From contig NZ_CP150919.1 of the NCBI RefSeq assembly GCF_039909015.1, forward strand, positions 4,316,501 through 4,380,500: DNA of 64,000 nt, given 5' to 3'. The notes under the pieces are model-generated. The model was not told the origin of the DNA and made no database searches. It saw only the letters and a list, made by a program, of their open reading frames with translations. Positions 37,372 to 55,633 of this stretch are shown here, one piece after another. Source of the DNA: Pseudomonas grandcourensis (GTDB lineage: Bacteria > Pseudomonadota > Gammaproteobacteria > Pseudomonadales > Pseudomonadaceae). Position numbers and translations under genes: made by a program. The number at the start of each line of letters is the position of its first letter. The stretch's first letter is position 1.

Positions 37372-39834
37372 TCAGGCGTTGGCACTGCACAGACGCAGTG
37401 AATGACCTGGAGTGGATTGTTCACTCAATGTCATCGGGTTGGCGACCTTGCTGCCAGAAGCATCACTGCGCAGTGTGGAAGGCAAGAGGAAGTAAGCCAG
37501 TGCCGGCAGTAATAGAAGCGCCCCCACCATGTTCCAGACAAACATGAACGCCAGGAGCACACCCATGTCGGCCTGGAACTTGATTGGGGAAAATATCCAG
37601 GTACCCACACCTATCGCCAAGGTTATCCCTGTGAGCATTACAACCTTGCCCGTGGAGACCAGGGCGCGGTAGTAAGCTTCGGAGAGGCTTTTACCTTCGC
37701 GCAAGAACCCCAGCATGATGGTCATTACATACAGCGCGTAATCAACGCCGATACCTACACCTAGAGCGATTACCGGCAGGGTCGCCACTTTCACACCGAT
37801 ACCTAAACCGACCATCAGTGCCTCACACAGAATCGACGTGAGCATGAGCGGAATCACTGCACACAGAGTGGCTCGCCAGGACCTGAAGGTGACGAGGCAG
37901 AGCAAAATGACTGCGCCATACACCCAGAACAGCATCTCGCGATTGGCCTCTTTGACCACAATGTTGGTCGCTGCCTCAATTCCCGCATTGCCGGCGGCAA
38001 GTTGGAATTTGACCTCATCAGTGTCATTTGCTGCTGCAAAAGCCTCGACGTGATTCACCAACCGCGTAAGGGTGTCGGCCTTATGGTCTTTGAGAAAAAC
38101 GTACAGCGTCAGCAAGCTGCAGGACTCATTGTAAAGTCCCCGCGGTGCGCTGGCGGTAATCATGTTAAGCATGGCCTGGTTGTTTTGCAGCTCGTACCAC
38201 TTGGAGTTGCCCTCAGACAGTCCTACCAACATACGACGATTTAACAACGCCATGGAGTTCGTTGAGTCTACCCCGGGTAAACTGCGCAACTGCCAATCCA
38301 GATCGTCGACCTTACGCAAGATGTCGTAGCTTGAGCAGGCACTCTTAGGTGTCTTCACCATTATGGCGAACAGGTCACTGCTGGCTCCGTAGCTGCGCGT
38401 CATGAAGGCATCATCGAGGTTGTAACGCGAATCCGGACGTAACTCTGGCGCACCAGCATCCAGATCGCCAATTGCCAGATGCAAGCTGACCATAAAGCCC
38501 AGCACAGCAGCCACCAGGCTGACAACTACGCTGATCAAGGCCCATGGTTTTCGAGTAAATAGATCAAGGAATCGCCAAAAAACGTGTCGCGCTTGACCAC
38601 TCTGCTCGGCCCGTTCGCTCTTGAGGCTTAGCTCGGCTGCGCAGCGATTGACGCCGACATAGGAGAGCAGGACGGGTAGCAAAATGAGGTTGGTGAAAAT
38701 CAGCACCGCAACGCCGATGCTAGCGATAATGGCCAAGTCTTGAATGACTTTGATCTGAATGATCATTAACACGGCGAATCCCACCGCATCACAAAGCAGT
38801 GCAGTCAGACCGGCGAGAAACAGGCGACGAAACGTGAAGCGCGCGGCAACCACTCGGTGCATGCCGCGACCAATATCCTGCATGATGCCGTTCATTTTCT
38901 GGGCGCCATGACTCATGCCAATGGCAAACACCAGAAAGGGCACCAGGACCGAATATGGGTCAAGCTCATACCCCAGCAACGGCAGCAAACCAAGCTGCCA
39001 GACAACCGCCACTACCGAGCAAAGCACGACCAGAAATGTGCTCCGCAGGCATCGGGTGTAGCCATAGAGCACTACTGTCGTGATAGCAATGGCGGCGGCA
39101 AAGAACAGCATGATTTGCCCCAGCCCATCTATCAGGTCCCCTACCTTCTTTGCGAACCCCGTGATGTGAATGTCAATGTTGTCGCTTTGAAACTCGGCGC
39201 GAAGCGCTTCCAACTGAACAGAAAGTTTGGCGTAGTCGAGGGGCTGGCCGTCCGGCGTGCGTGACAGCAAAGGAATGGAAATGATGCTGGACCGCTGGTC
39301 GAAGGCTACCAGTTGGCCTATCTCGTTGGACAACTGCACATTGCTTCGTAACTCAGCGAGGGATGCGGGGCTACCGTCGTACTTGTCAGGAATGACCGGC
39401 CCACCATCGAGCCCATCCTCCGTCACCGAAACCCAGCGTGTGGAAGGCGTCCATAGCGACTTCATGTACACGCGGTCCACGCCTGGCAGCAAAAAGATAC
39501 GATCGTTCATGGACTGCAAAGTACGCAGGTAATCAGTGTCGTAGATATCCCCCTTCTTGTTGGCAACCGCGATACGCACCGTATTACCTAGTCCGGAGAG
39601 CTCCTTTTGATTGGCTAGATAATTGGCAATATAGGGATGACCAGTCGGGATCATCTTCTCGAAACTAGCGTTCAATCCCAGTCGAGTGGATTGCCAGCCG
39701 AGCAGGACCGTCGTCAGCAGACATAGCAGAAGCACCCAGTGGCGATGGTTGAATAGAGCACGCTCAACCAAGGTCCCTGACCTTGGATCAAATATGCCTG
39801 ACTCAGGCAGGGAAGGATGACGAGCGGAATTCAT
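37372..39834 (-). CDS. RND-superfamily MMPL-type transporter
   Basis: The 820-residue inner-membrane protein has two sets of six membrane helices (clusters near residues 45-65, 230-410, then 440-460 and 640-790) with sterol-sensing-domain-like character (GVGIGVDYALYVMTIM, LALNASFEKMIP-like entry). It belongs to the MMPL/hydrophobe exporter branch, not the drug-pump branch. ATG 39834 with GGAG upstream is chosen over a frame opening at 39888. It is the last gene of the DUF1302-DUF1329-BNR-MMPL module and starts only 4 bp after the preceding stop. It probably moves a lipophilic substrate between envelope layers; direction is unknown. Confidence 0.88.
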   Translation of the reverse strand: MNSARHPSLPESGIFDPRSGTLVERALFNHRHWVLLLCLLTTVLLGWQSTRLGLNASFEKMIPTGHPYIANYLANQKELSGLGNTVRIAVANKKGDIYDTDYLRTLQSMNDRIFLLPGVDRVYMKSLWTPSTRWVSVTEDGLDGGPVIPDKYDGSPASLAELRSNVQLSNEIGQLVAFDQRSSIISIPLLSRTPDGQPLDYAKLSVQLEALRAEFQSDNIDIHITGFAKKVGDLIDGLGQIMLFFAAAIAITTVVLYGYTRCLRSTFLVVLCSVVAVVWQLGLLPLLGYELDPYSVLVPFLVFAIGMSHGAQKMNGIMQDIGRGMHRVVAARFTFRRLFLAGLTALLCDAVGFAVLMIIQIKVIQDLAIIASIGVAVLIFTNLILLPVLLSYVGVNRCAAELSLKSERAEQSGQARHVFWRFLDLFTRKPWALISVVVSLVAAVLGFMVSLHLAIGDLDAGAPELRPDSRYNLDDAFMTRSYGASSDLFAIMVKTPKSACSSYDILRKVDDLDWQLRSLPGVDSTNSMALLNRRMLVGLSEGNSKWYELQNNQAMLNMITASAPRGLYNESCSLLTLYVFLKDHKADTLTRLVNHVEAFAAANDTDEVKFQLAAGNAGIEAATNIVVKEANREMLFWVYGAVILLCLVTFRSWRATLCAVIPLMLTSILCEALMVGLGIGVKVATLPVIALGVGIGVDYALYVMTIMLGFLREGKSLSEAYYRALVSTGKVVMLTGITLAIGVGTWIFSPIKFQADMGVLLAFMFVWNMVGALLLLPALAYFLLPSTLRSDASGSKVANPMTLSEQSTPGHSLRLCSANA

Positions 39835-39838
39835 ATGC

Positions 39839-40942
39839 TCACTCCGAAACTTCAGTGGCGGGATGTGAAAAACGTGACAAACCAGCAAAACCGGAGGTAA
39901 TCAGACTACCGTCGACCGCCTCAACAATGCTGCTCACGGGAATTCCCAGCGGATTGCCCACCGGGTTAAGTGCTAAACCATTTGAGGCGGAGCTACTGAA
40001 CAAATCACCAGTTTGATTGGCTAGCAATACACTTCCATCTGGCAATCGAGCGGAACTACTGATTGAACTCGGCCTAGACACCTTCAATTGATTAAAGCTG
40101 GCACCATCATCAGATGACAAATAGGCATGGCCTTTAAGTCCCGCGATCAGCAGAGCTCCGTCACCACGTATATTCGCAGTGAAAAAGCTACCGTTATATG
40201 GGCTTGGCAAATGTGTGAAAGACTTTCCGTCATCTGTTGAGCGAGCTACATAACCTTGTTCACCGGCAAGGAACCAAAGGTGGTCTTTCCGAGCGATCGC
40301 GTAGATGTGCACAAGCGACGGATTTTCGATGCTGCCTATCAGCGATTGCCATGTTGCCCCACCATCCTGAGTAGAAAAAACCATTCCGTAGGAGCCGGCT
40401 ACGAGGCCGTGGTTGGCATCAAGAAAATGCAGGGCCAGGAATGGTTTATCCGGCCCATCTGCTACCAGGCGTTCGGCATTGGAAATGCGCATATCAGCCG
40501 CGTCGGCATCGACTGCATTAGCTTTTATATCTTGAGCTGCCTTCAACTCAATCTCTGCAGCCTGTATACCCGTAAGCTGGAGGCTCCAGCGCTCACCACC
40601 GTCCGCAGTGGCCAACACTGTGCCACCGTGTCCGACTGCCCAGCCATGTTCGTCATCGATGAACTGAACCGCAACCAGACTGACTGAGACCGGTACCTGC
40701 ACCTGTCTCCAGGACTGGCCATTGTCATCGGAAAGTACAATGACGCCTCTTTCACCAACCGCAATCAGTCGATCACCAGCACGTGCCAAATCAATCAGAA
40801 CAGCATGAGCGGGTGTGGCGATTTGCATCGCCGATGAGCTCAGGACAGAGCCTACGGCTCCACCCTCAGCACAAGCAAGCGAAGCTAAAGCAGACAAAGC
40901 CAAAGCTAACGCCAAGGCACTTAAACGACTGTTTATTATCAT
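39839..40942 (-). CDS. Exported YCF48/BNR-repeat beta-propeller protein
   Basis: The 367-residue protein has a Sec signal (INSRLSALALALALSALASL, cleaved near ACA) followed by repeats with BNR/YCF48 character (GVIVLSDDNGQSWRQV, GTVLATADGGERWSLQ, GMVFSTQDGGATWQSL, GYVARSTDDGKSFTHL, GHAYLSSDDGASFNQL). That gives a probable beta-propeller in the periplasm. ATG 40942 with AAGAGA upstream is preferred to the frame opening at 40984. Proteins of this type accompany MMPL transporters and DUF1302/DUF1329 proteins in several proteobacteria, perhaps as assembly or adaptor factors. Confidence 0.85.
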   Translation of the reverse strand: MIINSRLSALALALALSALASLACAEGGAVGSVLSSSAMQIATPAHAVLIDLARAGDRLIAVGERGVIVLSDDNGQSWRQVQVPVSVSLVAVQFIDDEHGWAVGHGGTVLATADGGERWSLQLTGIQAAEIELKAAQDIKANAVDADAADMRISNAERLVADGPDKPFLALHFLDANHGLVAGSYGMVFSTQDGGATWQSLIGSIENPSLVHIYAIARKDHLWFLAGEQGYVARSTDDGKSFTHLPSPYNGSFFTANIRGDGALLIAGLKGHAYLSSDDGASFNQLKVSRPSSISSSARLPDGSVLLANQTGDLFSSSASNGLALNPVGNPLGIPVSSIVEAVDGSLITSGFAGLSRFSHPATEVSE

Positions 40943-41019
40943 TTTTATTATCTCTTGAACCGCGTGTCGCAAAAGCACCGACAACTGAGATTGTCGGTGC
41001 TTTTCAGAGAGTCTTAGCG

Positions 41020-42381
41020 TTAACGCACACCCTGCCCCGCCATTACTGTTGGCGAGAAGTCAGACTTCTTGAAACGCTCGACAATCCCCCATTGCGAGGA
41101 CTGTCCAGTGAGCAGGTCAAGTACAAACCAAGTACCGGACATAAAGTCATAGAACCCCGACGAGACAGAAGCCTGGGCAGGAATATCTGGCATGACTGCC
41201 GGTAGCGCCCACAGCGTTTTGGCCAATTGACCACTTGCATCCCAACGATCGCCCAACAGCGCTTGCCAGGTATCTTCATCCAGGTAGTAACGGCTCTTAA
41301 CCATTTGATGGCGCTCGCCAGGCTTCAGATTTGCCTCGACAACCCACACACGATGCAGTTCCCAGCGCAAGACGTCTGGATTAAGATGCCGCTTACCAAG
41401 TACGTCTTCCGGTTTGCCTGCGGTAAAGAATTTATTGGTGTTATAGGGAATATAAAGTTCCTTTTTACCTACCAACTTCCAATTGAACCGGTTGAGCCGC
41501 CCTTTATAAACGGACAGTTCGTCGTAGGCCATCACGCCTGCTGTTGAAGGCGCTGGCGTGTCGCAGCAGGAGTTAGGTACCTTGCGCACTCGCCGTTGGC
41601 CGGCAAGGTAGATATGCGTCTGTGATTTATCGGCATTGAGATTGGCCCGATCCATCGCCTGCTCACCAGCACGAATCGGTGGGCCAATATTAAGCAGGCG
41701 AATCATCCAGTAATCGCCATCGAAAGTCTGCGCCGAGCCATCCTGAAAGTAATACGGCATCTCTTGGATAGCCTTACCATCGGTAGTCATTACCTGTTGA
41801 CCATCGGCAGTCATCAAATAAAAGCGAGCGTCCCGCGTAATGGAGGTACCGCTCCAACTCAGCAGATGGTTCCACATCGCCTCGTCACCATTTTTCGGAA
41901 TCGGAAACGGGATACCGCCATAAGCCCCTTCGGGCATTGGACCCGCGCTACCCTCTACCAGCGTGGCATTAACCGCATTCTTGGCTGTATTGTCATATAC
42001 CCACTGCGGAGCCGCTGCTGTTCGACGTGTTGGGTAGATATCCATTCGATAGGTGTCTGGATACCGTTTGAACATTTCTTTAACACCATCGCTCAACTTA
42101 TCTGCGTATTGAGCCATGTTCTTCGAAGTAATGCTGAACAGTGGTTTATCCGCGGCGAAAGGATCGCCACGCTTACCACCCTTCTGATAAGACGGATCAA
42201 CGGTGGTATATCCACCCTCCCATGCCGGGATAGTTTTATCCGCGTTACCAGCCCGCTCAGCGCCAAAGGGGGTCAGGCTTTTGCCTAAATCATCTACTCC
42301 GGTAGCCAACGCGGACGCGCTAAAAGCAATAGCACTCATTATAAAAAAATAAGCAGCACTGAATTTAATTCGAGAAATCAT
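41020..42381 (-). CDS. DUF1329 exported protein (LolA/LppX-like family)
   Basis: The 453-residue protein has a signal peptide (MISRIKFSAAYFFIMSAIAF, cleaved after ALA) and the DUF1329 pattern: LGKSLTPFGAERAGNADKTI near the N-terminus, then RRVRKVPNSCCDTPAPST and LNRFNWKLVGKKELYIPYNT. The fold is thought to resemble lipoprotein carriers, which would suit shuttling a hydrophobic molecule across the periplasm. ATG 42381 with AGAGGA upstream is used; a TTG two codons earlier has poor spacing. It lies 12 bp after the DUF1302 gene. Confidence 0.87.
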   Translation of the reverse strand: MISRIKFSAAYFFIMSAIAFSASALATGVDDLGKSLTPFGAERAGNADKTIPAWEGGYTTVDPSYQKGGKRGDPFAADKPLFSITSKNMAQYADKLSDGVKEMFKRYPDTYRMDIYPTRRTAAAPQWVYDNTAKNAVNATLVEGSAGPMPEGAYGGIPFPIPKNGDEAMWNHLLSWSGTSITRDARFYLMTADGQQVMTTDGKAIQEMPYYFQDGSAQTFDGDYWMIRLLNIGPPIRAGEQAMDRANLNADKSQTHIYLAGQRRVRKVPNSCCDTPAPSTAGVMAYDELSVYKGRLNRFNWKLVGKKELYIPYNTNKFFTAGKPEDVLGKRHLNPDVLRWELHRVWVVEANLKPGERHQMVKSRYYLDEDTWQALLGDRWDASGQLAKTLWALPAVMPDIPAQASVSSGFYDFMSGTWFVLDLLTGQSSQWGIVERFKKSDFSPTVMAGQGVR

Positions 42382-42393
42382 GTTCAAGTCCTC

Positions 42394-44097
42394 TTAGAAA
42401 GTGCTCTTGATAGAGAAGGCCAGGTAATCCCGATCTTTAAATGATTGCTTATAATTAAACTGGCTGGCCTCATTGAGCGTAGTGTCAGATGGACCGTAAT
42501 AATGTGTGTACGTCAAACCACAAGTGACACGATCAAGGTAGGTGGCGGTTACACCGATATTGAAATCACCACCTTTATCAGGACCGAAAGCGCCAACTAC
42601 AGCGGACTTACCCATAGGGAAGTAGCTGACACCTAGCGGAACACCAAGATCGATACCCGGGAATACCTGACGATAAGTTGGTGTATACACCAACTTGAGC
42701 CCTACCCCGTCATCTGTAGCATTCGGATCCAGTGCTGATCGGTTTTCAGTAACCTTCAACAAACGGTTCCAGGCAATCTCACCGATAAAGCTGGCCTCAT
42801 TGGATATGAAAGTTGGCTCGAGAGATGCGAGCACGTTCAAATTCACGTGGGCAGTCCGCCCGACCGCGTAAAGTGGATGATTGTCATTGTCAGCGTCTAC
42901 ATCTGGCAGTACGACCTGACCATTCGATACCAGGGGCATATTCCAGCGCATAGACGCTTCCCCGGCAAAGTTATACTCACCCACTGACGTGGTAAAACTT
43001 GCGCCCAGTGCGCGTATATCCTCCGGATACACCCAGAAGAACTCACCTACTTGTCCGGTTGCAAAATTAGGGGCGCCTACGCCAGGACGGAGGTACAACT
43101 GCGGGGTTTTATCATGGTATTGGATAGCATAAAGCCCGTAATCGACAGTTTCAGCTGCATAGCGTAACTGCAGGCCACCCTGTCCAGAACTCCGGGCTTT
43201 TTTGTCCTTACCATGAAAAAAGGCCGCAGGGCTGATTGGATTACCACCGAGAAAATCGGGGAATGGCTCCCCGACAATCAGGCGCTCAGCCCCCTCTCCC
43301 ATCATGTCGAGCGTGGAAAAATAGCTACCCGCCGCAGGTAATCGTGTTTCTTCCCACTCAAACTGATAGAACGCACCCAACGAAAGCGCATCAGTAAGTT
43401 GGTAGGAAGTAGACAACTGACTAACTGGTCTGGTGATTTCCTTGAACTGGGTGTTGGGTACTGAAATAGCCTTTACCACGTCCACCGGAGCCATTCCGCC
43501 AGCAATCCCATTGGCCCCGAAAAACAGACTTTCCCCCCAAATTAGGCCATGCCGACCCAAACGAAAGGACAAAGCTCGATCCGCAACTTCACCATTCCAA
43601 TAGACGAATGCATCTAATAACTCACCATCACCGCCGTGCAGATGTCGAGTGTCATCAGTGAATTCGTCATAGGCAACCGACACCTGATTCGCGCGCGCGG
43701 GGTTGTTGTTATCGTTGTCCTTCTGGTATTCGGTGTCGAACCAGGCTGCTCCGCTTAGACGACCACCAAAATTACGGTAACCGATATCCATTTCCGAGAG
43801 CAGGTCAAAACGGTTAGAGATAAGGCCCTTATCAAAAGCACGGTCACCGTCATCCTGGTTCAGGCTGACTTCGCTTTTCGAAAGCTTGCTGCTTGGGTCC
43901 TTCAGACGCCATGCAGAACTGTACTTGAGGGTGTTATCCCAGCGTGCACTAAGATCATTGTCGCCCGTATCAATTTGAAATGCACTGGCACTCATCGATA
44001 TCACACTCAGCGCACCTCCTGCTAGAACGCATGATAGGAACTTTGGCCGCCCTGAAGGCGACGGACATGAGTACGTAGTAGACTTTATTACACGCAT
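42394..44097 (-). CDS. DUF1302 outer-membrane protein
   Basis: The 567-residue protein has a signal peptide (cleaved near SASAFQ) and a beta-barrel-like body of alternating aromatic/polar strands ending in phenylalanine (LAFSIKSTF), as expected for an outer-membrane protein. Family landmarks include LSARWDNTLKYSSAWRL, LGRHGLIWGESLFFGANGIA and SQLSTSYQLTDALSLGAFYQ. It is the first gene of the four-gene envelope module. GAGG lies eight bases before ATG 44097. Two 18-bp palindromes at 44238 and 44507 in the upstream gap suggest control by the TetR encoded at 48424. Confidence 0.88.
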   Translation of the reverse strand: MRVIKSTTYSCPSPSGRPKFLSCVLAGGALSVISMSASAFQIDTGDNDLSARWDNTLKYSSAWRLKDPSSKLSKSEVSLNQDDGDRAFDKGLISNRFDLLSEMDIGYRNFGGRLSGAAWFDTEYQKDNDNNNPARANQVSVAYDEFTDDTRHLHGGDGELLDAFVYWNGEVADRALSFRLGRHGLIWGESLFFGANGIAGGMAPVDVVKAISVPNTQFKEITRPVSQLSTSYQLTDALSLGAFYQFEWEETRLPAAGSYFSTLDMMGEGAERLIVGEPFPDFLGGNPISPAAFFHGKDKKARSSGQGGLQLRYAAETVDYGLYAIQYHDKTPQLYLRPGVGAPNFATGQVGEFFWVYPEDIRALGASFTTSVGEYNFAGEASMRWNMPLVSNGQVVLPDVDADNDNHPLYAVGRTAHVNLNVLASLEPTFISNEASFIGEIAWNRLLKVTENRSALDPNATDDGVGLKLVYTPTYRQVFPGIDLGVPLGVSYFPMGKSAVVGAFGPDKGGDFNIGVTATYLDRVTCGLTYTHYYGPSDTTLNEASQFNYKQSFKDRDYLAFSIKSTF

Positions 44098-44237
44098 ATA
44101 CGAACCTCTTTTGTTTTTGTATTAGGCTTCGCTAAACTTGAAATTTGACGCTACTTAACCGCTCCTTCCGAAAACGCATATACCTATCCGGGTCTCACCG
44201 AGCACCAGCGATATGACCATTCCCATTAAATTTAACA

Positions 44238-44255
44238 ATACGGGACGTTTCGTAT
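44238..44255. promoter_or_regulatory. TetR-type operator, DUF1302 proximal site
   Basis: ATACGGGACGTTTCGTAT. It shares the A-x-A-C-G...ACG...CGT-x-T frame of the 18-bp palindromes at 44507, 48192, 50599 and 53003, and lies 141 bp upstream of the DUF1302 start. Confidence 0.55.
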
Positions 44256-44506
44256 ACTTACAGCTATCAACCAGGCCTGTCAAGCCCGGGGTGATGTGTT
44301 TTGCCTACGGATCCCTGTTGGGGGGCTGGCATACCGTGACCCTGGCAGCGTCTAAATCCGAGGATCCACCAACAGAAAGCCCTGTAAGACAGATAGTTGT
44401 GATTTTTTGACGTTTGAAAGTTGCAGCCGCTTTTCCTGCCGGGTGAACAGACAACGCGCAAGCGCAATCTCACCTTTCATCTGCTAAGCGGCAACAATCA
44501 TAAGCA

Positions 44507-44524
44507 AAACGGAACGTACCGTTT
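44507..44524. promoter_or_regulatory. TetR-type operator, best palindrome
   Basis: AAACGGAACGTACCGTTT, palindromic at 16 of 18 positions. It is the reference for the cluster's operator motif and lies about 410 bp upstream of the DUF1302 start. Confidence 0.65.
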
Positions 44525-44750
44525 ATTACATTTCCATTTGTTATGTTCTGCAAGCTAAATGCGAGAAAAGTTAAGGTTTAGAGTTCAACCTGAAAGGCAT
44601 AAAATAGCGCCATGTATCGCTTCTCTATGCCTAAGAATCGATACGCGCTGAATGGCAGATGGCGTCAAGGGCAGTAAAGCCAAATCGCCACAATGATTTT
44701 ATTAAAAAAACGCTTGCACTAGAAGCCAAGCGTAAAATTGCAGCACCTAA

Positions 44751-45653
44751 TTAAAATTTAAACATTCCATTGAGCATCACTGTGTCGCCTTCCGAAGTAT
44801 TTCGAGCATAAACATCTTTTTGATAGCCGAGTACTACTCCAAAATCCCGACTTGCGTAGCCCACTTGCGGGCCGACCTTTATGGATCTTGTTCGATTACC
44901 TACATCATCCCCGTGGGACTGGTCATCATTCAACTGAGTCGACAAATATCCACCAATACCTGCCAGCCAGTTCTGGGTCAGCCGATAGTTAAATCCATAG
45001 TCTGCAACGACCTGCACTCCAGATTTATAGTCAGTCTTTGGATTTTCGTAACTATAGTTGACACTGATCTTCGAGCTGACCTCAACTTGCGGCATTGGAA
45101 ACCACGTAAAGGCGTAAGCAGCATAAATTGCCTTACTATTGTTTCCTGGATTAATCAAGGCGTGTTCATCATATTTCCCCCAAGGCGCTACAAAATCCAA
45201 CTCCAGGTTATGAAGATAGGTTGGAGACTGCCAGCTGACCAAGGCACCGAATAATGGGTCGCCCATTCCATTCGAGGAGTCTCTACCAAATGCTCCCAAT
45301 GCAGGAATATCCAGGTGACCAGCAACGTAAGGAACTGCGAGCTGCAATGAAACGTTCCCGCCAAGTAGTGATGGCCCATCAAGCGTGTGTACTAATCTCA
45401 AAGCATGCGAGTGAACTCTTCCTTTAGCCTTTTGAAATACCTTATTTCCTTGCCCATCTCGAATTGAATCTATGGCAACGGTTTTATTGTATGTATAGGC
45501 ATGGGTTTCACCTGGAGCACCTACTGCCCCACTCATGACAGTTACAATACCCAATGGATAACTGGAAGCACCTCCTTCAAGCGCCATCGATTTGGCGGCA
45601 AACAGCAATACACCAAAAAAAATCACCAGGCGAAAATCAGCTGGAGTCTTCAT
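44751..45653 (-). CDS. Phenol_MetA_deg-type outer-membrane protein
   Basis: The 300-residue protein has a signal peptide (about 24 residues, cleaved near SMALEGG) and the pattern of the 'transporter, meta-pathway of phenol degradation' family (start EGGASSYPLGIVTVMSGAVG; core LDFVAPWGKY; end MLNGMFKF). These are predicted outer-membrane barrels found in aromatic-degradation clusters. ATG 45653 with AAGGAA upstream is preferred to the longer frame from 45686. The gene is visibly richer in A+T than its neighbours. It is probably the last gene of the 47-48 kb operon. Confidence 0.8.
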   Translation of the reverse strand: MKTPADFRLVIFFGVLLFAAKSMALEGGASSYPLGIVTVMSGAVGAPGETHAYTYNKTVAIDSIRDGQGNKVFQKAKGRVHSHALRLVHTLDGPSLLGGNVSLQLAVPYVAGHLDIPALGAFGRDSSNGMGDPLFGALVSWQSPTYLHNLELDFVAPWGKYDEHALINPGNNSKAIYAAYAFTWFPMPQVEVSSKISVNYSYENPKTDYKSGVQVVADYGFNYRLTQNWLAGIGGYLSTQLNDDQSHGDDVGNRTRSIKVGPQVGYASRDFGVVLGYQKDVYARNTSEGDTVMLNGMFKF

Positions 45654-45739
45654 CACACGTTCCTTTCTTGTTTTTGTTTTTGGCAATGGAAATTGACGCA
45701 GTCAAATAACATAAGGATCTGCCAAAAATCCTCTGGATG

Positions 45740-46090
45740 CTACTCTTCCATTAAAAATATTTCTTTCATCTCAGTAATTTCCAAACTCACAGGTGTCAAA
45801 CGCAAGCCAATACAGGGTCCTTTTATGCACAAACCCGAACTAATTTCAAACAACGCACCATGACCACTACAAACGATATGACTGGACTCGCTGTCGAGAT
45901 AACGATTCTTGCGAACTGGCATAGTTGAACCGGGCCAATGGGGACAAGAATTTTTATAGCCATAGATATTTCCGCAGTCATTGACTAAAAAAATGTCGTC
46001 GGGACCTGTGCTTTCCTTCCTGAACCCCAAAGATTGGCCTGGCGCAATTTGCTCGAGATGGCAAAGCCTGCGGCGATCAGATTTTGCCAT
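45740..46090 (-). CDS. Rieske [2Fe-2S] ferredoxin-like protein
   Basis: The 116-residue protein has both Rieske ligand pairs: C49-x-H51 (NSCPHWPG) and C74-x-x-H77 (VCSGHGALFE). The length suits a soluble Rieske ferredoxin or a small regulatory Rieske protein. ATG 46090 with AGG-rich upstream sequence is used. It lies 19 bp after the extradiol dioxygenase gene. It may donate electrons to an oxygenase or keep the extradiol enzyme's iron reduced, as XylT-type ferredoxins do (XylT itself is plant-type). The ring-hydroxylating oxygenase encoded at 54105 already has a reductase with its own ferredoxin domain. Confidence 0.85.
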   Translation of the reverse strand: MAKSDRRRLCHLEQIAPGQSLGFRKESTGPDDIFLVNDCGNIYGYKNSCPHWPGSTMPVRKNRYLDSESSHIVCSGHGALFEISSGLCIKGPCIGLRLTPVSLEITEMKEIFLMEE

Positions 46091-46109
46091 CTTCAACCTA
46101 CCCCCCTTA

Positions 46110-47036
46110 TTAATCAGGCTTGCCGCCAGGAGCCCATTTTTCACGCCATTGGAACAGGAACACCTGGGAGTTATCCATGATTGCAGGGGCTACGCGCGGC
46201 GACCAGTCATCGTCGTGCTGATCCATATCGGCGTCGTACTCGATGTGGCAGCCCAATGGGGTGTTGAAGTACCAGAACCAGTTAGACCCAAACTTATGTC
46301 GCCCCGGCCCCCAATATGACTCATAACCTTTAGCTGCAAACGCATAGCCGGCTTGCAGTACTTCCTGAGGCCCCCCCATATGGAAGGTAAAGTGCTCGCA
46401 TCCCTGCAAATGCGGCGGGGTTTGAATGAAGAAAAGGGTGTGGTGGTCGAAAGTACCCGCAGGACGCAGAAATGGACCCATCCCGACAAATTTGTCGGTG
46501 AGTTTGAAACCCAAACGATCCGCATAGAAGCGCTCGGCCTTTTCGATATCTGGAACGAAATAAACAACGTGGGAGAGCGTTCGTGGCTTGGGAGCGAGCT
46601 CGGAACTTTCATCCACACCGGTTTTGTTCGCAGGACGGTGAATATCTCCCGGCGCGTTTACGCGCTCGGCGGGCAGTTTGTGCGGCTTTCTGATCGAAAC
46701 TTGAAAGCCCAGAGCGAATCCGAGATCGTCCACTAACTCCAGTGAACCATCGGCCAGAACCTTGACTTCACGCTCGCCCTCGAACTCCTTCCGGATGCTC
46801 GCGAGAGTCGCGATGTCTTTTACGCCATACATTGTCTTGCGCAACATGTTTGCGGTCGGCAAATTCCAGGCAGGGAGCGACGGATCGTCACGATGCTTGA
46901 TAACTACACCAGTTCCATCCAATGCTTCAAAGCGTCCACCCCCTACCGGCTCAAGGCCGTAATCTTCCAAGAAGCGCTCACTGAGCGCGACATCGTCAAC
47001 ACCAAAATACAAAGTGTCCGGTCCAAGGATGTTCAT
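46110..47036 (-). CDS. VOC-family extradiol ring-cleavage dioxygenase
   Basis: The 308-residue two-module vicinal-oxygen-chelate protein has the size and ligand spacing of BphC-type type I extradiol dioxygenases. The iron ligands appear as H156 (LSHVVYF), H215 (GCEHFTFH) and E266 (CHIEYDAD). Such enzymes cleave a catechol ring next to the diol. ATG 47036 with AGGTG upstream is used. It lies 95 bp after the FAH-family gene and before a Rieske ferredoxin. The substrate is probably a substituted catechol, possibly a large one; the sequence alone does not say which. Confidence 0.85.
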   Translation of the reverse strand: MNILGPDTLYFGVDDVALSERFLEDYGLEPVGGGRFEALDGTGVVIKHRDDPSLPAWNLPTANMLRKTMYGVKDIATLASIRKEFEGEREVKVLADGSLELVDDLGFALGFQVSIRKPHKLPAERVNAPGDIHRPANKTGVDESSELAPKPRTLSHVVYFVPDIEKAERFYADRLGFKLTDKFVGMGPFLRPAGTFDHHTLFFIQTPPHLQGCEHFTFHMGGPQEVLQAGYAFAAKGYESYWGPGRHKFGSNWFWYFNTPLGCHIEYDADMDQHDDDWSPRVAPAIMDNSQVFLFQWREKWAPGGKPD

Positions 47037-47070
47037 TTCAACACCTATCAAAGAATGCGTTTTTCTTATG

Positions 47071-47097
47071 TCAGGCCAGAACCATTGCCGGGCCTGA
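47071..47097. other. Intercistronic inverted repeat
   Basis: Arms TCAGGCC / GGCCTGA with a 13-nt loop lie between the FAH gene and the extradiol dioxygenase gene. It is possibly an RNA-processing or stabilising hairpin; it has no T-run. Confidence 0.35.
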
Positions 47098-47131
47098 GAT
47101 CTCTGATGCGCGCGTGAGTTTCAAATACACG

Positions 47132-48130
47132 TCACATGAATGGCTTGCGCTCTTCAGGCCACCATAGACCGGAAATAGGTTGTCCCATCTTGTTGCGCAG
47201 AGTTCCGACGCCATCAACGATAATTTCGACGACATCACCGGGCTGGAGCCTACGATCGAGCTCCAAAGCTGAACCACCGCCCATCGTACCCGAGCCGATT
47301 ACATCGCCCGGCACGATGGCTTCACCAAGGCTAGCCCAGGCAATCAGCTCGCCAATTGTCCAAAGTTTATTGGAGCTGTCACCCTTACCCCAAGTCTCGC
47401 CATTGACGCGGACTTCCATGCCGATCCGGTCCAAATCTTTGAATTCATCGACGGTGGTAATCCAAGGCCCGATACCGTAGGCGAAGTCTTTACACTTGGT
47501 GGGACCCATCCCAATTGGCATTTCGACCGCCTGACAATCGCGGGCGCTAAAGTCATTGAAGATGGTGATACCGAACAGGTGATCAAGCGCGTTTTCAGGG
47601 CGCAGACTTTCTCCACGCTTTCCGATGACGTAACCAAGCTCCAGTTCGTAGTCCATGTGCTGGATGTATCCTGGCCACGGAACTTCCGCTTCATGCCCAA
47701 TCACCGTATGCGGCGTACCTTTGAAATAGCCGGGCACCTTCAGAAGATTTGGAGTGGGCGGCTGGCCAATTTTTTCATGGAAGCCTTTGATGTGGCCCAC
47801 GAATGTCAGTCCATCTCGCACCACAGAAGGATCCGAGGCTGGCAACCACTGCACGCTATCGAATGAGATTGAATGTGCATCTGGCCGCTTAGCATTGATC
47901 TTTTCTGCTGCCTCGATAAACGGCGTGCCCAATGCAATTGCCGCCGACATGCTGCCAGGGAAAACAGCATTTGCGTATTGCAGAGCGCTTTCCCGGGAAG
48001 AACCGCCCTTGACCAACTGCTCATGGAGCGCGCGCTTCAGGTCGATGACCCGATGCTCCTCTGGAACTACCAGCACCAAGCGGGCTTCCGCACCGTCGGG
48101 CCCGTTAACAGAAATTCGGCCTAGCTTCAT
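47132..48130 (-). CDS. Fumarylacetoacetate hydrolase family protein
   Basis: The 332-residue protein has the FAH catalytic region: YELELGYVIGKRGE (metal-binding glutamates), GITIFNDFSARDCQAVEMPI and IGSGTMGGGSALELDRRLQP near the C-terminus. FAH-type enzymes hydrolyse the C-C bond of acylpyruvates or isomerise/hydrate ring-cleavage products, so this one probably acts after the extradiol dioxygenase encoded next. ATG 48130. An 18-bp operator lies 62 bp upstream (48192-48209), and the gene is divergent from tetR. It is the first gene of the FAH-dioxygenase-ferredoxin-outer-membrane-protein unit. Confidence 0.87.
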   Translation of the reverse strand: MKLGRISVNGPDGAEARLVLVVPEEHRVIDLKRALHEQLVKGGSSRESALQYANAVFPGSMSAAIALGTPFIEAAEKINAKRPDAHSISFDSVQWLPASDPSVVRDGLTFVGHIKGFHEKIGQPPTPNLLKVPGYFKGTPHTVIGHEAEVPWPGYIQHMDYELELGYVIGKRGESLRPENALDHLFGITIFNDFSARDCQAVEMPIGMGPTKCKDFAYGIGPWITTVDEFKDLDRIGMEVRVNGETWGKGDSSNKLWTIGELIAWASLGEAIVPGDVIGSGTMGGGSALELDRRLQPGDVVEIIVDGVGTLRNKMGQPISGLWWPEERKPFM

Positions 48131-48191
48131 GTGATTTCCCTCTTTTTATTGACTTGAACGAGCCTGAATCAGCTTTGCAAGACTCAAAGCT

Positions 48192-48209
48192 AAACGACAC
48201 GCACCGTTT
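48192..48209. promoter_or_regulatory. TetR-type operator upstream of the FAH gene
   Basis: AAACGACACGCACCGTTT. It matches the motif at 44507 at 15 of 18 positions and lies in the divergent region between the FAH gene and tetR. Confidence 0.65.
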
Positions 48210-48342
48210 TGTAAAGGGCAAAAATCGGTACAATTTAGAAGATTTCGCTGATACGCCAAGCCGTGGCGTAGACAGATCAGCAGGAGCCGGGAACTGAAGC
48301 CGTCGGATTGATAATTTTGGCAGACAACAAATATACTAATCG

Positions 48343-48360
48343 TATCGTTTTGTTTCGTTT
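48343..48360. promoter_or_regulatory. Weak TetR-type operator upstream of tetR
   Basis: TATCGTTTTGTTTCGTTT. It keeps the two CG steps and the terminal CGTTT of the motif but matches the 44507 site at only about 10 of 18 positions. It lies 64 bp upstream of the tetR start and may be an autoregulatory site. Confidence 0.4.
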
Positions 48361-48423
48361 ATAAGTTCGTGCAATGAATCATTGTCAGACCATCTCAAGA
48401 CCGCAGCGCCAAGGAACACATCA

Positions 48424-49020
48424 ATGCAGGTTAAGAAAACCTCAATGCCTACTGGACGCCCCCGTAGTGAAGCGACACGCCGACTGATCCTGGATGCTGC
48501 TATCAGCCTCCTCCAGGACAAATCGATTCAAGCAATCTCTATCGAAGCGATAGCACGAGAGGCAGGAGTGAGTAAGGCGACCATTTATCGATGGTGGGAA
48601 TCCAAGGCTTCCGTCGTGATCGATGCGTTTATCGAGCAACACTTGGTTAAAACAACGCTTCCTCGAGGCATGCGCCCACGCGAGGCCATAACGCACCATT
48701 TCCGTTCTTTCGTAACGCAGTATTCAGGATGGCCCGGCCGGCTCGTCGCTCAAATTGTTGCTGAAGGTCAATCTGATCCAACCATCCATCGCGTCTTCCG
48801 TGAGCGATTTCATTACGGTCGAAGAGCAGTCGTCAGAGAGATGCTTGAAGAGTGGAAAAACAGCGGCGACATTTCAAAAGGTGCAGATGTCGAAGTACTC
48901 ATGGATTTGATCTATGGGCCGGTTTATATGCGCCTGATGATAGGTCATGCCCCTCTGGACGAGTCCTTTGCTGAATCACATATCAATTACATATGCGAAT
49001 TGCTGGGCTCTAGATCCTGA
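48424..49020 (+). CDS. TetR-family regulator of the aromatic cluster
   Basis: The 198-residue protein has a TetR helix-turn-helix at about residues 15-60 (LILDAAISLLQDKSIQAISI, then AREAGVSKATIYRWWESKA) and a TetR_C ligand domain. ATG 48424 with AAGGA upstream is used rather than a TTG frame opening at 48382. It is the only plus-strand gene in the cluster and is divergent from the FAH gene. The recurring 18-bp palindrome in the surrounding promoter regions makes it the natural candidate for a cluster-wide repressor whose ligand is a pathway compound. Confidence 0.9.
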   Translation: MQVKKTSMPTGRPRSEATRRLILDAAISLLQDKSIQAISIEAIAREAGVSKATIYRWWESKASVVIDAFIEQHLVKTTLPRGMRPREAITHHFRSFVTQYSGWPGRLVAQIVAEGQSDPTIHRVFRERFHYGRRAVVREMLEEWKNSGDISKGADVEVLMDLIYGPVYMRLMIGHAPLDESFAESHINYICELLGSRS

Positions 49021-49045
49021 AAATCGCGATGATTACCATACTAAA

Positions 49046-49067
49046 AAGCCGGCCTTATGGCCGGCTT
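49046..49067. terminator. Bidirectional terminator between convergent genes
   Basis: Arms AAGCCGGCC / GGCCGGCTT with loop TTAT are flanked by a run of A on the left and GTGTATTT on the right. It separates the end of tetR from the end of the BKACE gene. Confidence 0.85.
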
Positions 49068-49122
49068 GTGTATTTCACAATACAGGGTGGGCCGTCTCTG
49101 GATGACCCTTATGAATACCGAA

Positions 49123-50049
49123 TTAGAAAGCAGTATTTGTCTTTCCTTTCAACGCGAGTATTTCCCTTGCCTCTTGAGGTGTAGCAATTTCAAACCCCAA
49201 CTGTTCCACGATACTTCGGATTTTCCGCACTTGTGCGGCATTAGAAACCGCCAACTCACCGCGCCCGATGTACAAGCTATCTTCAAGACCCACTCTGACG
49301 TTGCCGCCCATAATGGCCGCGAGAGTCGCTAGCGACATCTGGTCTTTACCTGCGCCCAATACTGACCAGTGATACTGATCACCAAATAGACGATCTGCGG
49401 TTCGCTTCTGATGCATCACATCTTCGATATGAGCCCCCATGGCACCACGCAATCCAAAAATTGTCTGGATGAACAATGGCGGCTTAACCAGTCCTTTATC
49501 CAGGAAATACTTCAGCGTGTACAAGTGGCTGACGTCGTAACACTCGAACTCAAAGCGGGTACCGGTATCACCAATGGTTCGCAGGATCCATTCGATATCG
49601 GAAAAAGTATTGCGGAAGACCAGATCCTTTGTGGCATTAAGATGCTCCACTTCCCAGCTGTAACGCCACTCTCGATCCTTGCTGGCCATTTCGGAAAGGT
49701 TGAGGTTTATAGACCCCATGTTCAGGGAGCACATTTCCGGCTGTAGCGCTACACCCGCCGCCGCACGCTCGCTAATTGCCATTCCCGGGCCACCACCGCC
49801 CGTAGAAATGTTCACGATGGCATCCGTTTCGGCCTTAATTCTCGAGACGAATTGACGAAAGATTTCAGGGTCGCCAGTGGGACGACCATCCTCAGGGTTT
49901 CGGGCGTGAAGATGAACGATCGCCGCTCCCGCTTTTACCGCTTCGATCGCCTGATCGCCAATCTCCTGAGGAGTAACCGGGAGATGAGGAGACATCGACG
50001 GCGTATGTGCCCCGCCCGTGATAGCGGCGGTTATTATAATTTTTCTCAC
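49123..50049 (-). CDS. BKACE (DUF849) beta-keto acid cleavage enzyme
   Basis: The 308-residue zinc-dependent TIM-barrel protein of the DUF849/BKACE family has the N-terminus IIITAAITGGAHTPSMSPHL, zinc ligands in AIVHLHARNPEDG, VNISTGGGGPGMAI, and the RVGLEDSLYIGRG segment with the third ligand. Family members condense a beta-keto acid with acetyl-CoA to give acetoacetate and a new acyl-CoA. It starts with GTG (GGAG seven bases upstream) and overlaps the cupin stop by 4 bp. In this cluster it may process a beta-keto acid released after ring cleavage and hydrolysis. Confidence 0.9.
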   Translation of the reverse strand: MRKIIITAAITGGAHTPSMSPHLPVTPQEIGDQAIEAVKAGAAIVHLHARNPEDGRPTGDPEIFRQFVSRIKAETDAIVNISTGGGGPGMAISERAAAGVALQPEMCSLNMGSINLNLSEMASKDREWRYSWEVEHLNATKDLVFRNTFSDIEWILRTIGDTGTRFEFECYDVSHLYTLKYFLDKGLVKPPLFIQTIFGLRGAMGAHIEDVMHQKRTADRLFGDQYHWSVLGAGKDQMSLATLAAIMGGNVRVGLEDSLYIGRGELAVSNAAQVRKIRSIVEQLGFEIATPQEAREILALKGKTNTAF

Positions 50050-50588
50050 AGTTCTTCTCCTTCTTTCAGCGCTAACAGGACGAACAGCATTCGACAGTTA
50101 CGCCCGGAACGATTCGACCAACTGTGGTTGGTTGCGCGCTGTACCAGTACGTCTCCTGGCCGCATAACGGTCTCACCGTGATCCATCATCGCGACAATCT
50201 CGCCCTCGAGTACCACGGCGTAATCAAGGGATTGCGTTTTGTGGAACCAGAAATGTCGAGGCTTTTTCTTGTCGCGCACACCTTCACTATCAAGAAATTC
50301 GACCAACTTTTCCTGGTCATAAACTTCATCTGGCGGGAAGTCGACTATTCGAAGAAGCGAACCCTCATCAGAATGAAAACCAAATTTGTGTCCGGCTGGC
50401 GCTGGATCCAAACCGCCCGCACGCCCAACACCCGTTGCCCAGACGACCTGTGCAACCGGCTTACCAGCTTGTGCCAGAACATTTGGTGTATTGGCGTCAC
50501 TGGTGATAATCGACTCACCAGCTTCGTTGTGACCAGTGACAATCCTCCGTACTGGCTTATAAGCCACTTCGGTAATGTTATTCATCAT
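50046..50588 (-). CDS. Cupin-domain protein
   Basis: The 180-residue protein has a single C-terminal cupin barrel (about residues 105-175): HFWFHKTQSLDYAVVLEGEI, then MMDHGETVMRPGDVLVQRAT and NHSWSNRSGRNCRMLF. The first cupin motif is degenerate and the second retains NHSW. Proteins of this type occur beside aromatic and quinate-type catabolic genes with no proven role; a small-molecule isomerase or stabiliser is possible. It is translationally coupled to the BKACE gene. A strong 18-bp operator lies 11 bp upstream of its start, so it begins its own transcription unit. Confidence 0.8.
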   Translation of the reverse strand: MMNNITEVAYKPVRRIVTGHNEAGESIITSDANTPNVLAQAGKPVAQVVWATGVGRAGGLDPAPAGHKFGFHSDEGSLLRIVDFPPDEVYDQEKLVEFLDSEGVRDKKKPRHFWFHKTQSLDYAVVLEGEIVAMMDHGETVMRPGDVLVQRATNHSWSNRSGRNCRMLFVLLALKEGEEL

Positions 50589-50598
50589 GCAACCTCAA

Positions 50599-50616
50599 AA
50601 ACGGTTCGTTTAGTTT
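50599..50616. promoter_or_regulatory. TetR-type operator upstream of cupin-BKACE
   Basis: AAACGGTTCGTTTAGTTT (reverse complement AAACTAAACGAACCGTTT). It matches the 18-bp cluster motif and lies just ahead of the cupin ribosome-binding site. Confidence 0.62.
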
Positions 50617-50639
50617 CGTTATTAATCAAATTTTTTGAG

Positions 50640-51110
50640 TCATACCGCCTTTAGGCGACTCACTGGCATAACCACAAATGTTGCTGACGAACTGGCGATC
50701 AGCACTTCTCGCTGAGGGTCATGAAGTTCGGCCCTGGCGAACGCAATTTGACGACCCACACGTTCAACTGTTGCCTTTGCTTTCAACAACGATGGCTTCG
50801 CAGCCGCCTGCATATTCACCGTAATGCTGGTAGTGGCACAGGTTTGCCCACAGGGCAGCGTGCTGAGTACTGCAAAAGCCATGGCATAGTCGAGCATGGT
50901 CATCAATGTGCCACCGGATACAACGCCATTTCCCTGAAGGGATGTTAATGGCGCTTCGAAACTAAGTTCGACAATGCCAAGGCCGCCATTAATCAACCTC
51001 GCGCCAAGTGCACTTAATCCAGCAGTCAATTCAAACGGGATGTCAAATTGGGCCTCTGAAATAGCACGCTCCAAAAAAGCTCGGTCTGGGTTGTCAATGA
51101 TTTTTTGCAC
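50640..51110 (-). CDS. PaaI-type hotdog thioesterase
   Basis: The 156-residue protein has the hotdog-fold PaaI pattern: LINGGLGIVELSFEAPLTSL, then GVVSGGTLMTMLDYAMAFAV and TTSITVNMQAAAKPSLLKAK. It probably hydrolyses an acyl-CoA, either as a pathway step or to free CoA from dead-end thioesters. A thioesterase plus a BKACE enzyme suggests CoA-linked chemistry in the lower pathway. It starts with GTG (GAGG nine bases upstream) and lies 11 bp after the second FAH gene. Confidence 0.83.
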   Translation of the reverse strand: MQKIIDNPDRAFLERAISEAQFDIPFELTAGLSALGARLINGGLGIVELSFEAPLTSLQGNGVVSGGTLMTMLDYAMAFAVLSTLPCGQTCATTSITVNMQAAAKPSLLKAKATVERVGRQIAFARAELHDPQREVLIASSSATFVVMPVSRLKAV

Positions 51111-51121
51111 AAGACGTTACC

Positions 51122-52111
51122 TCAACCTGAATGACTGATGCAGTTCTGCCGTTGCGCACCCAGTCCGGCAATTGTGCCAACCATAATGTCGCCGTCGCGC
51201 AAGAAACGATTGTAATGAGTTCCATTACCTGCAGGGGAGCCTGTACAAATCACATCGCCGGGCAATAGCTTTGCGTACTTCGAGATGTATGCGATTTGTT
51301 GTTCAATCCCAAAAAGCATATCTGCCGTCGTCTCATCCTGCATTGTTTTGCCGGACACTGTCAGTTGCATCGAGAGGTTGTGGGGATCTTCAACGAACTG
51401 CTTGGGAACCAGATACGGACCAAGCGGAAGAAAGCCTGGCTGCCCTTTCGATCTGAGCCAGTCAGTACCGAGCATCTTGTAATCAGTGCGTGGAATGAGG
51501 TCGCGAGCCGAAATGTCATTGACGATTGTGTAACCGGCTACATAATCCATGGCATCTTCCACACGGATATTGTACCCCTCCTTGCCTATCACTACGGCCA
51601 ACTCAAGCTCCCAGTCAGGCTTGCTGGTAGTGGGAGGAAGAACCAAGTCGTCATAGGCTCCCGAAATGGCAGAGACGGGCTTGGTGAATACATAGGGTTC
51701 TCCATTAGCGACCCTGTCATCCATCATGTCTTCAGCCCAAGTCCTCAATTCTTCCTTGCTTAGCCCTTCTGGACCGACATTTGAATCGACGGTCAAATCC
51801 ACTACATGCTTTCGATAGTTTGCGCCTGTGCAGAACACTTGACGCGGCAGATCAACTGCAGGGCGAAACGTGAGTTGATTTTCATCATACCAGGACGACG
51901 TAATGACTTTATTGACAATCGATTCGAGCGCGGCGTAACTGGCATCCCAGTTTTCAAGTAGCGACAGCACACTTTTTTCTCGGAGAATATCAACTCCGAA
52001 CTCCTCAGCCACGCGACTGACTGGGATAACCTTTGCGTCAATAACCAGGCCAGCAAAGCGTTGCTGTGGATTGGCTTTTAAAGAAAATGTACCGAGCGAG
52101 AACTTCTTCAA
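51122..52111 (-). CDS. Second fumarylacetoacetate hydrolase family protein
   Basis: The 329-residue FAH-fold enzyme has FCTGANYRKHVVDLT, the metal-site region WELELAVVIGKEGYNIRVED, VAGYTIVNDISARDLIPRTD and PGDVICTGSPAGNGTHYN. It is distinct from the FAH protein at 47132 and closer to the acylpyruvase/hydratase branch. The start is placed at TTG 52111, which has GGAGG five bases upstream; a frame from ATG 52159 would overlap the preceding gene by 35 bp without a ribosome-binding site. It sits between the binding-protein-like gene and the thioesterase. Confidence 0.82.
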   Translation of the reverse strand: MKKFSLGTFSLKANPQQRFAGLVIDAKVIPVSRVAEEFGVDILREKSVLSLLENWDASYAALESIVNKVITSSWYDENQLTFRPAVDLPRQVFCTGANYRKHVVDLTVDSNVGPEGLSKEELRTWAEDMMDDRVANGEPYVFTKPVSAISGAYDDLVLPPTTSKPDWELELAVVIGKEGYNIRVEDAMDYVAGYTIVNDISARDLIPRTDYKMLGTDWLRSKGQPGFLPLGPYLVPKQFVEDPHNLSMQLTVSGKTMQDETTADMLFGIEQQIAYISKYAKLLPGDVICTGSPAGNGTHYNRFLRDGDIMVGTIAGLGAQRQNCISHSG

Positions 52112-52124
52112 GTGTACCTCCGAA

Positions 52125-52970
52125 TTATTGTAAGAATGAGCCGTCGACAATTTGCTCATAGGTAAAATCCGCGCCGGGCAACCCTAGCAAAGCCCTCTGC
52201 CCAATAAGAAGCTCAAGACCCTCGCGAGAAGGCATCAGCGTTTCAGGAAATGTATTCACCATTGCTTTTACTGCTTCGACAGGCATGCCAAGCAGCTCCA
52301 AAGCCTCTGTCAGCTTTACCGTGTCGCCAGGCATGGTCGTAAGTGTTGCGCTGAGGATGCGTACCCACGCTTTCAGTGCGTCATTCGCCTGACTCGCCGA
52401 CTTCCTCACGACCAGTCCTTGACCAGGAAAATTGGTAAATACACCCTGAATCGTTGCAATAGTCTTGAGTCCCCGCTGAACCGCCATGGTGTCGAACGGA
52501 GGCCCGAGCAAGGTCGCATCACCCTCCCCCGCAACAAGAGCCGCAAACCGCTCACGCACCCCGCCAACGGGTGTCAGGCGATAATCGTCGGCGCGGAGCC
52601 CTGCTTCCTTGAGTAGCGCTCGAAGGGCAATGACAAAACCGTTCTCGGGGGCGTCCACCAGAATGTTGGCACCGCGCAAATCTGCAGGAGCGGATAGGGC
52701 CGAGGAACCGACCAGTTGTAACGGCGTGGTGGTTTCAATCTGAGCAATCACCACGAAGTCTTGTGGACCTTGCCGGCGGTTCCAGTGCAAAACGTTGTCG
52801 ATTGACGTTACGACCGCGTCGACCTCTCCTGCACAGAGTGACGAGTACTGCTCATCAGACGATTGAGTCATCGAAGACTCGATACGCAAATCCGCCGGCG
52901 TTTGCCACGAGGCTGATACCGCAATAGCAGGAGGGACAAACCACATCACTCGAAGAGAGTCGTTGGACAT
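52125..52970 (-). CDS. NMT1/SsuA-like periplasmic-binding-protein fold, apparently cytosolic
   Basis: The 281-residue protein has the two-lobe type-2 periplasmic-binding fold of the NMT1/THI5/SsuA group (CAGEVDAVVTSIDNVLHWNR, ADLRGANILVDAPENGFVIA, VRERFAALVAGEGDATLLGP). It starts directly with MSNDSLRVMWFVPP: no signal peptide, no lipobox, and no ABC permease or ATPase nearby. It is probably cytosolic, so it may be an enzyme or a binding/sensing protein rather than a transporter component. An 18-bp operator lies 33 bp upstream. It is the first gene of the unit with the second FAH gene and the thioesterase. Confidence 0.7.
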   Translation of the reverse strand: MSNDSLRVMWFVPPAIAVSASWQTPADLRIESSMTQSSDEQYSSLCAGEVDAVVTSIDNVLHWNRRQGPQDFVVIAQIETTTPLQLVGSSALSAPADLRGANILVDAPENGFVIALRALLKEAGLRADDYRLTPVGGVRERFAALVAGEGDATLLGPPFDTMAVQRGLKTIATIQGVFTNFPGQGLVVRKSASQANDALKAWVRILSATLTTMPGDTVKLTEALELLGMPVEAVKAMVNTFPETLMPSREGLELLIGQRALLGLPGADFTYEQIVDGSFLQ

Positions 52971-53002
52971 TTTTTATTCTCGTTGAAATTACCCCATATA
53001 TA

Positions 53003-53020
53003 AAACTATACGTACCGTAT
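53003..53020. promoter_or_regulatory. TetR-type operator upstream of the binding-protein-fold gene
   Basis: AAACTATACGTACCGTAT. It matches the 18-bp cluster motif (14 of 18 with the 44507 site) and lies 33 bp upstream of the start codon. Confidence 0.6.
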
Positions 53021-53067
53021 TGTCAACGAGGCGACCATCGCTTGATTAAGCCGTCAGAAGGGGGGTA

Positions 53068-55495: not shown

Positions 55496-55633
55496 CTTTG
55501 CCGTGAGCGCTCCGTCGACTCCCGTGCACTGAGGTTCATCGCCTCAATGACAGCCCTGGCAGCGCCATAGCTGCAGGGCACACCCGGTTCACACTGAGGT
55601 ATGATCACCTCAAAGCCACCTGATGGATTTTGC

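Follow-up and report, generated by a model that had tools for sequence, protein, structure and literature searches.

Genes and putative operator sites of the cluster

The DNA analysed here, a stretch of 64,000 nucleotides from Pseudomonas grandcourensis (the window; assembly GCF_039909015.1, contig NZ_CP150919.1, positions 4,316,501 to 4,380,500), carries genes that look like a pathway for the breakdown of an aromatic compound, an envelope module and a gene for a TetR-type regulator, TetR1. An 18-bp near-palindrome with the consensus AWACGRTACGTAYCGTWT recurs in the gaps between them (Table 1), and judging from its letters and its company it is very probably the docking site of the nearby TetR-type repressors.

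The original prediction had quoted five such 18-mers in upstream non-coding gaps, and a weaker copy before tetR1. Each of the five was found exactly once, at its predicted position and strand. The copy before tetR1 exists as well; it lies at the position given in Table 1 rather than at 48343 and is nearly as strong as the others. A symmetrised matrix built from the five quoted sites assigned them 22.3–26.9 bits and the tetR1 copy 21.2 bits, compared with 11.7 bits for the next-best 18-mer in the 64 kb. The six sites are the six top positions of the window, with a margin of at least 9.5 bits over everything else, and in a leave-one-out analysis the five ranked 1, 6, 5, 2 and 6 among about 64,000 positions. 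For later scans the tetR1 copy was added to give a six-site matrix. Half-site symmetry is imperfect, with 5 to 8 of 9 positions matching per copy. All six sites are located wholly between genes, as are 1320 of the 12941 possible start positions (10%) in that region.

Table 1. Genes and operator sites of the P. grandcourensis cluster (positions in the window unless another coordinate system is named)
Feature	Position	Strand	Remarks
MMPL-family transporter	37372..39837	minus	
YCF48-like protein	39839..40984	minus	
DUF1329 protein	41020..42387	minus	
DUF1302 protein	42394..44097	minus	first gene of the envelope module
Operator ATACGGGACGTTTCGTAT	44238..44255		140 bp before DUF1302; kept in L032, a near-identical cluster of P. 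jessenii
Operator AAACGGAACGTACCGTTT	44507..44524		second site upstream of DUF1302; best palindrome (8/9); 27 bits, six-site matrix
Phenol_MetA_deg outer-membrane protein	44751..45653	minus	
Rieske ferredoxin	45740..46090	minus	
Glyoxalase-fold extradiol dioxygenase	46110..47036	minus	
FAH1	47132..48130	minus	FAA-hydrolase family
Operator AAACGACACGCACCGTTT	48192..48209		before FAH1; TTTACA immediately upstream, minus strand
Operator ATACTAATCGTATCGTTT	48333..48350		before tetR1
TetR1	48424..49020	plus	PhlF-like predicted repressor (TetR_N + TetR_C_11), by domain and sequence comparison
BKACE	49123..50049	minus	above the NCBIfam cut-off for 3,5-dioxohexanoate:acetyl-CoA acetone transferase (501 vs 430 bits)
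Cupin	50046..50588	minus	
Operator AAACTAAACGAACCGTTT	50599..50616	minus	10 bp ahead of the cupin start
4HBT thioesterase	50640..51110	minus	
FAH2	51122..52111	minus	FAA-hydrolase family
NMT1_2-fold protein	52125..52970	minus	first gene of its unit
Operator AAACTATACGTACCGTAT	53003..53020		NMT1 promoter: between TTGACA (53021-53026, minus) and TATATA (52997-53002, minus)
TetR paralogue (73%)	L016:4807-5436 = G000:C1 4385134		past the window end
TetR paralogue (69%)	L016:11965-12558 = G000:C1 4392280		past the window end

Rarity of the palindrome

The exact pattern AWACNNNACGNWYCGTWT occurs at six places in the 6.76-Mb chromosome: five are in the window, and the sixth, at G000:C1:4391998, lies 11.5 kb beyond its end. 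The reversed pattern, used as control, gave no match in the P. grandcourensis genome; the motif is rare, as the original prediction required. When one mismatch was allowed, 22 real and 18 control matches were obtained genome-wide. Fourteen of the 22 are inside the cluster, and the other eight, far from it, were set aside as background; six far matches were taken up as loci, the top scorer of which (L007, 18.7 bits) lies inside a coding gene. With 500 palindrome-preserving column permutations of the six-site matrix, window matches of at least 19 bits averaged 0.018 (maximum 2), compared with six for the real matrix. A megablast search of positions 44100–53100 against a plasmid collection gave no match.

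The same pattern beside phlF

Among 298 Pseudomonas genomes, the exact pattern was present in 36. Since the reversed control occurs in roughly 80, single genus-wide matches are regarded as background. The 36 include all four genomes having a TetR1 relative (E ≤ 1e-40) and all ten having PhlF (E ≤ 1e-50); the remaining 22 have one place each, apart from G108 with two. Every one of the ten PhlF genomes carries two sites, 131–176 bp apart, beside phlF. Because the exact pattern marks this gap in all ten, the palindrome is best read as a PhlF-type operator. Two of the ten loci were inspected individually, and in one of them the PhlG model passes its cut-off. In one genome (G205:C1:2452837-2453460) the search output shows a phlF copy with one in-frame TAA that has kept its paired operator sites. 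PhlF itself was not found at E ≤ 1e-50 in the P. grandcourensis genome.

The same palindrome also stands upstream of genes for distant TetR relatives (35–45% identity) in Bradyrhizobium, Streptomyces, Nocardia and others (loci L075, L076, L078–L081, L089, L093, L094, L103, L105 and others). By this comparison of sequences, it is the predicted class-wide operator of these TetR relatives.

Conservation across genomes

One genome per species was scanned with a TetR alignment, and the best 76 loci of 384 stretches encoding a relative were retained. A match of at least 17 bits was found in 62 of the 76. The permutation control left out four loci nearly identical to the P. grandcourensis region (L031, L032, L039 and L040); in L031, from Pseudomonas sp. 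Root71, the counterparts of the window genes are 99–100% identical. The near copies L037 and L038 were both kept, and L025–L030 share contigs with L033, L037 and L042. At 19 bits or more, eight Pseudomonas loci gave 32 matches, against a mean of 0.26 and a maximum of 13 with 100 permuted matrices. For 25 loci from other genera, with a TetR identity of 54–64%, the count was 31 (permuted mean 0.13, permuted maximum 5), and 39 distant loci yielded 34 (permuted mean 0.27, permuted maximum 6). The rare high permuted counts may stem from permutations that resemble the motif, and related loci are not independent of each other.

With the six-site matrix, the palindrome was also detected ahead of the orthologous operons of other Pseudomonas, of Cupriavidus, of Burkholderia and of Variovorax, often within the −35/−10 spacer, so that the motif is kept in syntenic clusters, a point on which the original prediction had been staked. 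Counts by promoter and by gene refer to chosen loci among the 76. FAH1 has a site of at least 16 bits within 300 bp upstream in 19 of the 20 FAH1-bearing loci examined. The cupin, NMT1, OCD, MFS and extradiol genes have a site upstream in part of the loci. For the cupin gene, it is found 10–12 bp before the aligned start in all seven Pseudomonas loci examined; some of these aligned starts are not ATG.

The envelope module had been assigned to the same regulon. Two sites precede DUF1302 in the window, and YCF48-MMPL has an upstream site in each of the three diverged loci that possess it (P. inefficax, Cupriavidus lacunae and Variovorax YR216, where the site is shared with a divergent FAH1). DUF1302 with sites is seen only in two near-identical clusters, which makes the envelope link the weaker part of the regulon.

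Position of the sites within promoters

At the NMT1 promoter, TTGAC[AG] abuts the site in all nine site-bearing loci, 32–36 bp before the start. The promoter-phase test covered 54 sites in 14 sequences (the window and 13 loci, with L038 left out). A −35/−10 pair agreeing with the consensus at 9 or more of 12 positions occurred at offset 0 in 16 sites and at +1 in six, compared with 0–2 at each of the remaining offsets between −12 and +12. The test has a slight bias, as spacers of 16 or 17 let a hexamer borrow AT-rich letters from the site ends. The spacer between −35 and −10 is the classical position of a repressor, from which we infer repression.

It is likely that PhlF-like TetR repressors hold flavonoid-type catabolic promoters and the envelope module shut until a flavonoid-type ligand releases them. 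Dimers of TetR1, and probably of its two paralogues too, would occupy the palindrome; lying in the −35/−10 spacer at several promoters and just before the start codon at the cupin gene, the bound repressor would block RNA polymerase. A flavonoid-type ligand, either the parent compound or a ring-cleavage product, would release it and thereby switch on the FAH1-extradiol, cupin-BKACE and NMT1-FAH2-4HBT genes, the monooxygenase and OCD-aldolase-ALDH genes beyond the window, and the DUF1302-DUF1329-YCF48-MMPL module together with tetR1 itself.

Several observations weigh against this model. No match of 17 bits was found in 14 of the 76 loci. The cupin site at 10–12 bp is confined to Pseudomonas, and Variovorax cupin genes have no site; 7 of the 16 NMT1 promoters examined lack an 18-bit site, and tetR is without a site within 300 bp in the majority of the betaproteobacterial loci examined. 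In G072, one of the four genomes with a TetR1 relative, about 29 kb or more separate the sole exact match from the tetR genes, beside which there are weaker matrix matches. TetR2, encoded downstream of the window, has no good site of its own (best 12.8 bits). The overall identity of TetR1 to PhlF is only 28%, which makes TetR1 a PhlF-like regulator and not PhlF. Finally, the phlA operator is described as lying downstream of the transcriptional start and not in the spacer (PMC8003664).

TetR paralogues and the predicted regulon past the window

A search of the P. grandcourensis genome with TetR1 revealed two paralogues, encoded downstream of tetR1 at distances of about 20 and 27 kb (Table 1). 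The first adjoins a gene for an acyl-CoA-dehydrogenase-type monooxygenase. The extra exact site is flanked on one side by genes for a small protein resembling a Tat-signal protein and for a VAO-type flavoprotein (FAD_binding_4), and on the other by the third tetR; a further site, at 4394360 and with one mismatch, separates a FAD monooxygenase gene from the genes for OCD, a DHDPS-like aldolase and ALDH. The predicted regulon thus extends past the window to the flavin monooxygenase and the OCD-aldolase-ALDH operon. The small protein (L016:10931-11392, 153 aa, directly before the flavoprotein gene) has no Pfam match; by eye, its N-terminus resembles a twin-arginine signal. G277, labelled as the same species in our sample, has neither such a TetR at E ≤ 1e-40 nor an exact site, and the island is therefore not universal in the species.

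Since three TetR paralogues (69–100% identity, within 28 kb) share a nearly identical helix-turn-helix (HTH), sequence by itself does not tell which of them is the regulator. The choice of a TetR in the original prediction gained strength from the pattern beside phlF. There is an appreciable, if smaller, chance that the operator is TetR-bound but mainly by TetR2 or TetR3, or by all three, with TetR1 controlling little beyond its own divergent promoter. Such paired TetRs recur in nine other loci, including P. inefficax, Burkholderia, Paraburkholderia and Cupriavidus; two of the nine, from near-identical genomes, share one arrangement, and another is a distant Paenibacillus. Control centred on TetR1 is favoured by its place amid most of the sites, as had been noted for the tetR at 48424, with one site directly before it, and by P. 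batumici (L033), which has the same operon set and sites and one TetR within its 20.6 kb.

The least ordinary feature of the island is that a single operator set is accompanied by two or three paralogous repressors whose reading helices are nearly identical. It is conceivable, though doubtful, that two to three such PhlF-like paralogues with diverged ligand domains compete or heterodimerise on shared operators, so that the island would integrate several flavonoid signals and couple the envelope transport module to them.

Some TetR proteins act as activators, and TetR1 might be an activator or a dual regulator; this is improbable, as the sites fill the −35/−10 spacer or sit 10 bp before a start codon. 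PhlF, moreover, is a repressor (PMC8003664). Other regulator genes are close by, a MarR at 55601 or 56257 and an AraC-type at 56805, and one of them could in principle use the palindrome. We consider this very improbable and treat it as ruled out by loci that lack these regulators by tblastn, where the motif follows TetR_C_11-type TetRs, and by the copies beside phlF; a strongly conserved 18-bp near-palindrome also suits a TetR dimer. That the sites are chance look-alikes chosen by eye, as a selection effect might produce among imperfect palindromes picked by reading, is contradicted by the permutation, genome-wide, cross-genus and promoter-phase tests and is effectively ruled out by the genome-wide counts with their reversed control, the permuted matrices and the intergenic placement.

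Substrate of the pathway and implications

The genes had been described as an aromatic pathway. Breakdown of an aromatic compound fits, but the set looks more like the ifc cluster for isoflavones than like a generic aromatic pathway, and a flavonoid or isoflavone is the likely substrate. The ifc cluster of Variovorax V35 encodes the FAD monooxygenase IfcA, the glyoxalase-type dioxygenase IfcB and the cupins IfcD; its hotspot genes rise with daidzein, no regulator being named in the sections consulted, and IfcA homologues are reported in Pseudomonas too (PMC11069340). The same paper uses the label A79 for an isolate that degrades daidzein. The P. grandcourensis monooxygenase is 67% identical to a FAD monooxygenase of Acidovorax sp. 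A79, the product of a candidate ifcA. The monooxygenases of Variovorax L064 and L065 are 82–83% identical to the A79 enzyme; both loci carry an extradiol gene and operator-like sites, and L065 a cupin gene as well. Window proteins share 62–69% (extradiol) and 65–68% (cupin) identity with those of Variovorax L060, L061 and L065. The BKACE score above its cut-off hints at the final steps of the pathway. The NMT1/periplasmic-binding-fold protein is encoded beside FAH2 in many loci; its N-terminus shows no obvious signal peptide by eye, and it may therefore be a cytosolic enzyme and not a transport protein.

If the model holds, one signal could switch on a flavonoid pathway and a cell-envelope module together. 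It would supply a candidate repressor family and operator for daidzein-induced ifc-type clusters, and it would tie to the PhlF operator a catabolic island of flavonoid type whose distribution among soil- and root-associated bacteria is patchy. The DUF1302-DUF1329-YCF48-MMPL module, about which little is understood, would gain a regulatory setting, and this setting suggests that its role has to do with hydrophobic phenolics of plants. PhlF is widely used in synthetic circuits, and cross-talk with this repressor is predictable because the island's operator is tied to its own. Its use in yeast has been described (PMC11659477).

Comparison with known systems

The operator and the regulator class are already known; our literature search, which most subscription papers lay outside, found no paper assigning a PhlF-type operator to flavonoid or isoflavone clusters. 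FrrA, a flavonoid-responsive TetR, is among the solved TetR structures closer to TetR1 by sequence and fold, but the match is weak (E about 1e-6, template-modelling score about 0.53) and ranks behind 2fq4 and 2zb9; the fold search with TetR1 returned mainly general TetR neighbours. FdeR is a LysR-type protein. It regulates the fde genes for naringenin degradation in Herbaspirillum seropedicae, a difference from the present cluster; fde has the monooxygenase-plus-dioxygenase logic that PMC11069340 describes for ifc. The ifc clusters of Variovorax sp. V35 and Acidovorax sp. A79 have a FAD monooxygenase in common with our cluster, whose glyoxalase-fold dioxygenase and cupin are candidate counterparts of IfcB and IfcD; our cluster differs in gene order and in the extra DUF1302 envelope module.

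On its minus strand, the phlF-adjacent gap of L107 holds a sequence taken to be the 30-bp phO operator. A 30-bp PhlF site containing a 24-bp inverted repeat has been described (PMC11659477). PhlF represses at phO and is released by 2,4-diacetylphloroglucinol and monoacetylphloroglucinol, and apigenin and phloretin influence PhlF/PhlH (PMC8003664); PhlH binds phloretin (PMC11878095). PhlF governs antibiotic synthesis in the 2,4-diacetylphloroglucinol cluster of Pseudomonas and not catabolism, as predicted for TetR1, but the two systems have the same 18-bp core, which reads ATACGAAACGTACCGTAT on one strand in L107 and scores 25.8 bits with the window matrix. TetR1 and PhlF also share the TetR_N and TetR_C_11 domains and the HTH core SIEA.AR.AG.SK.TIYRWW.

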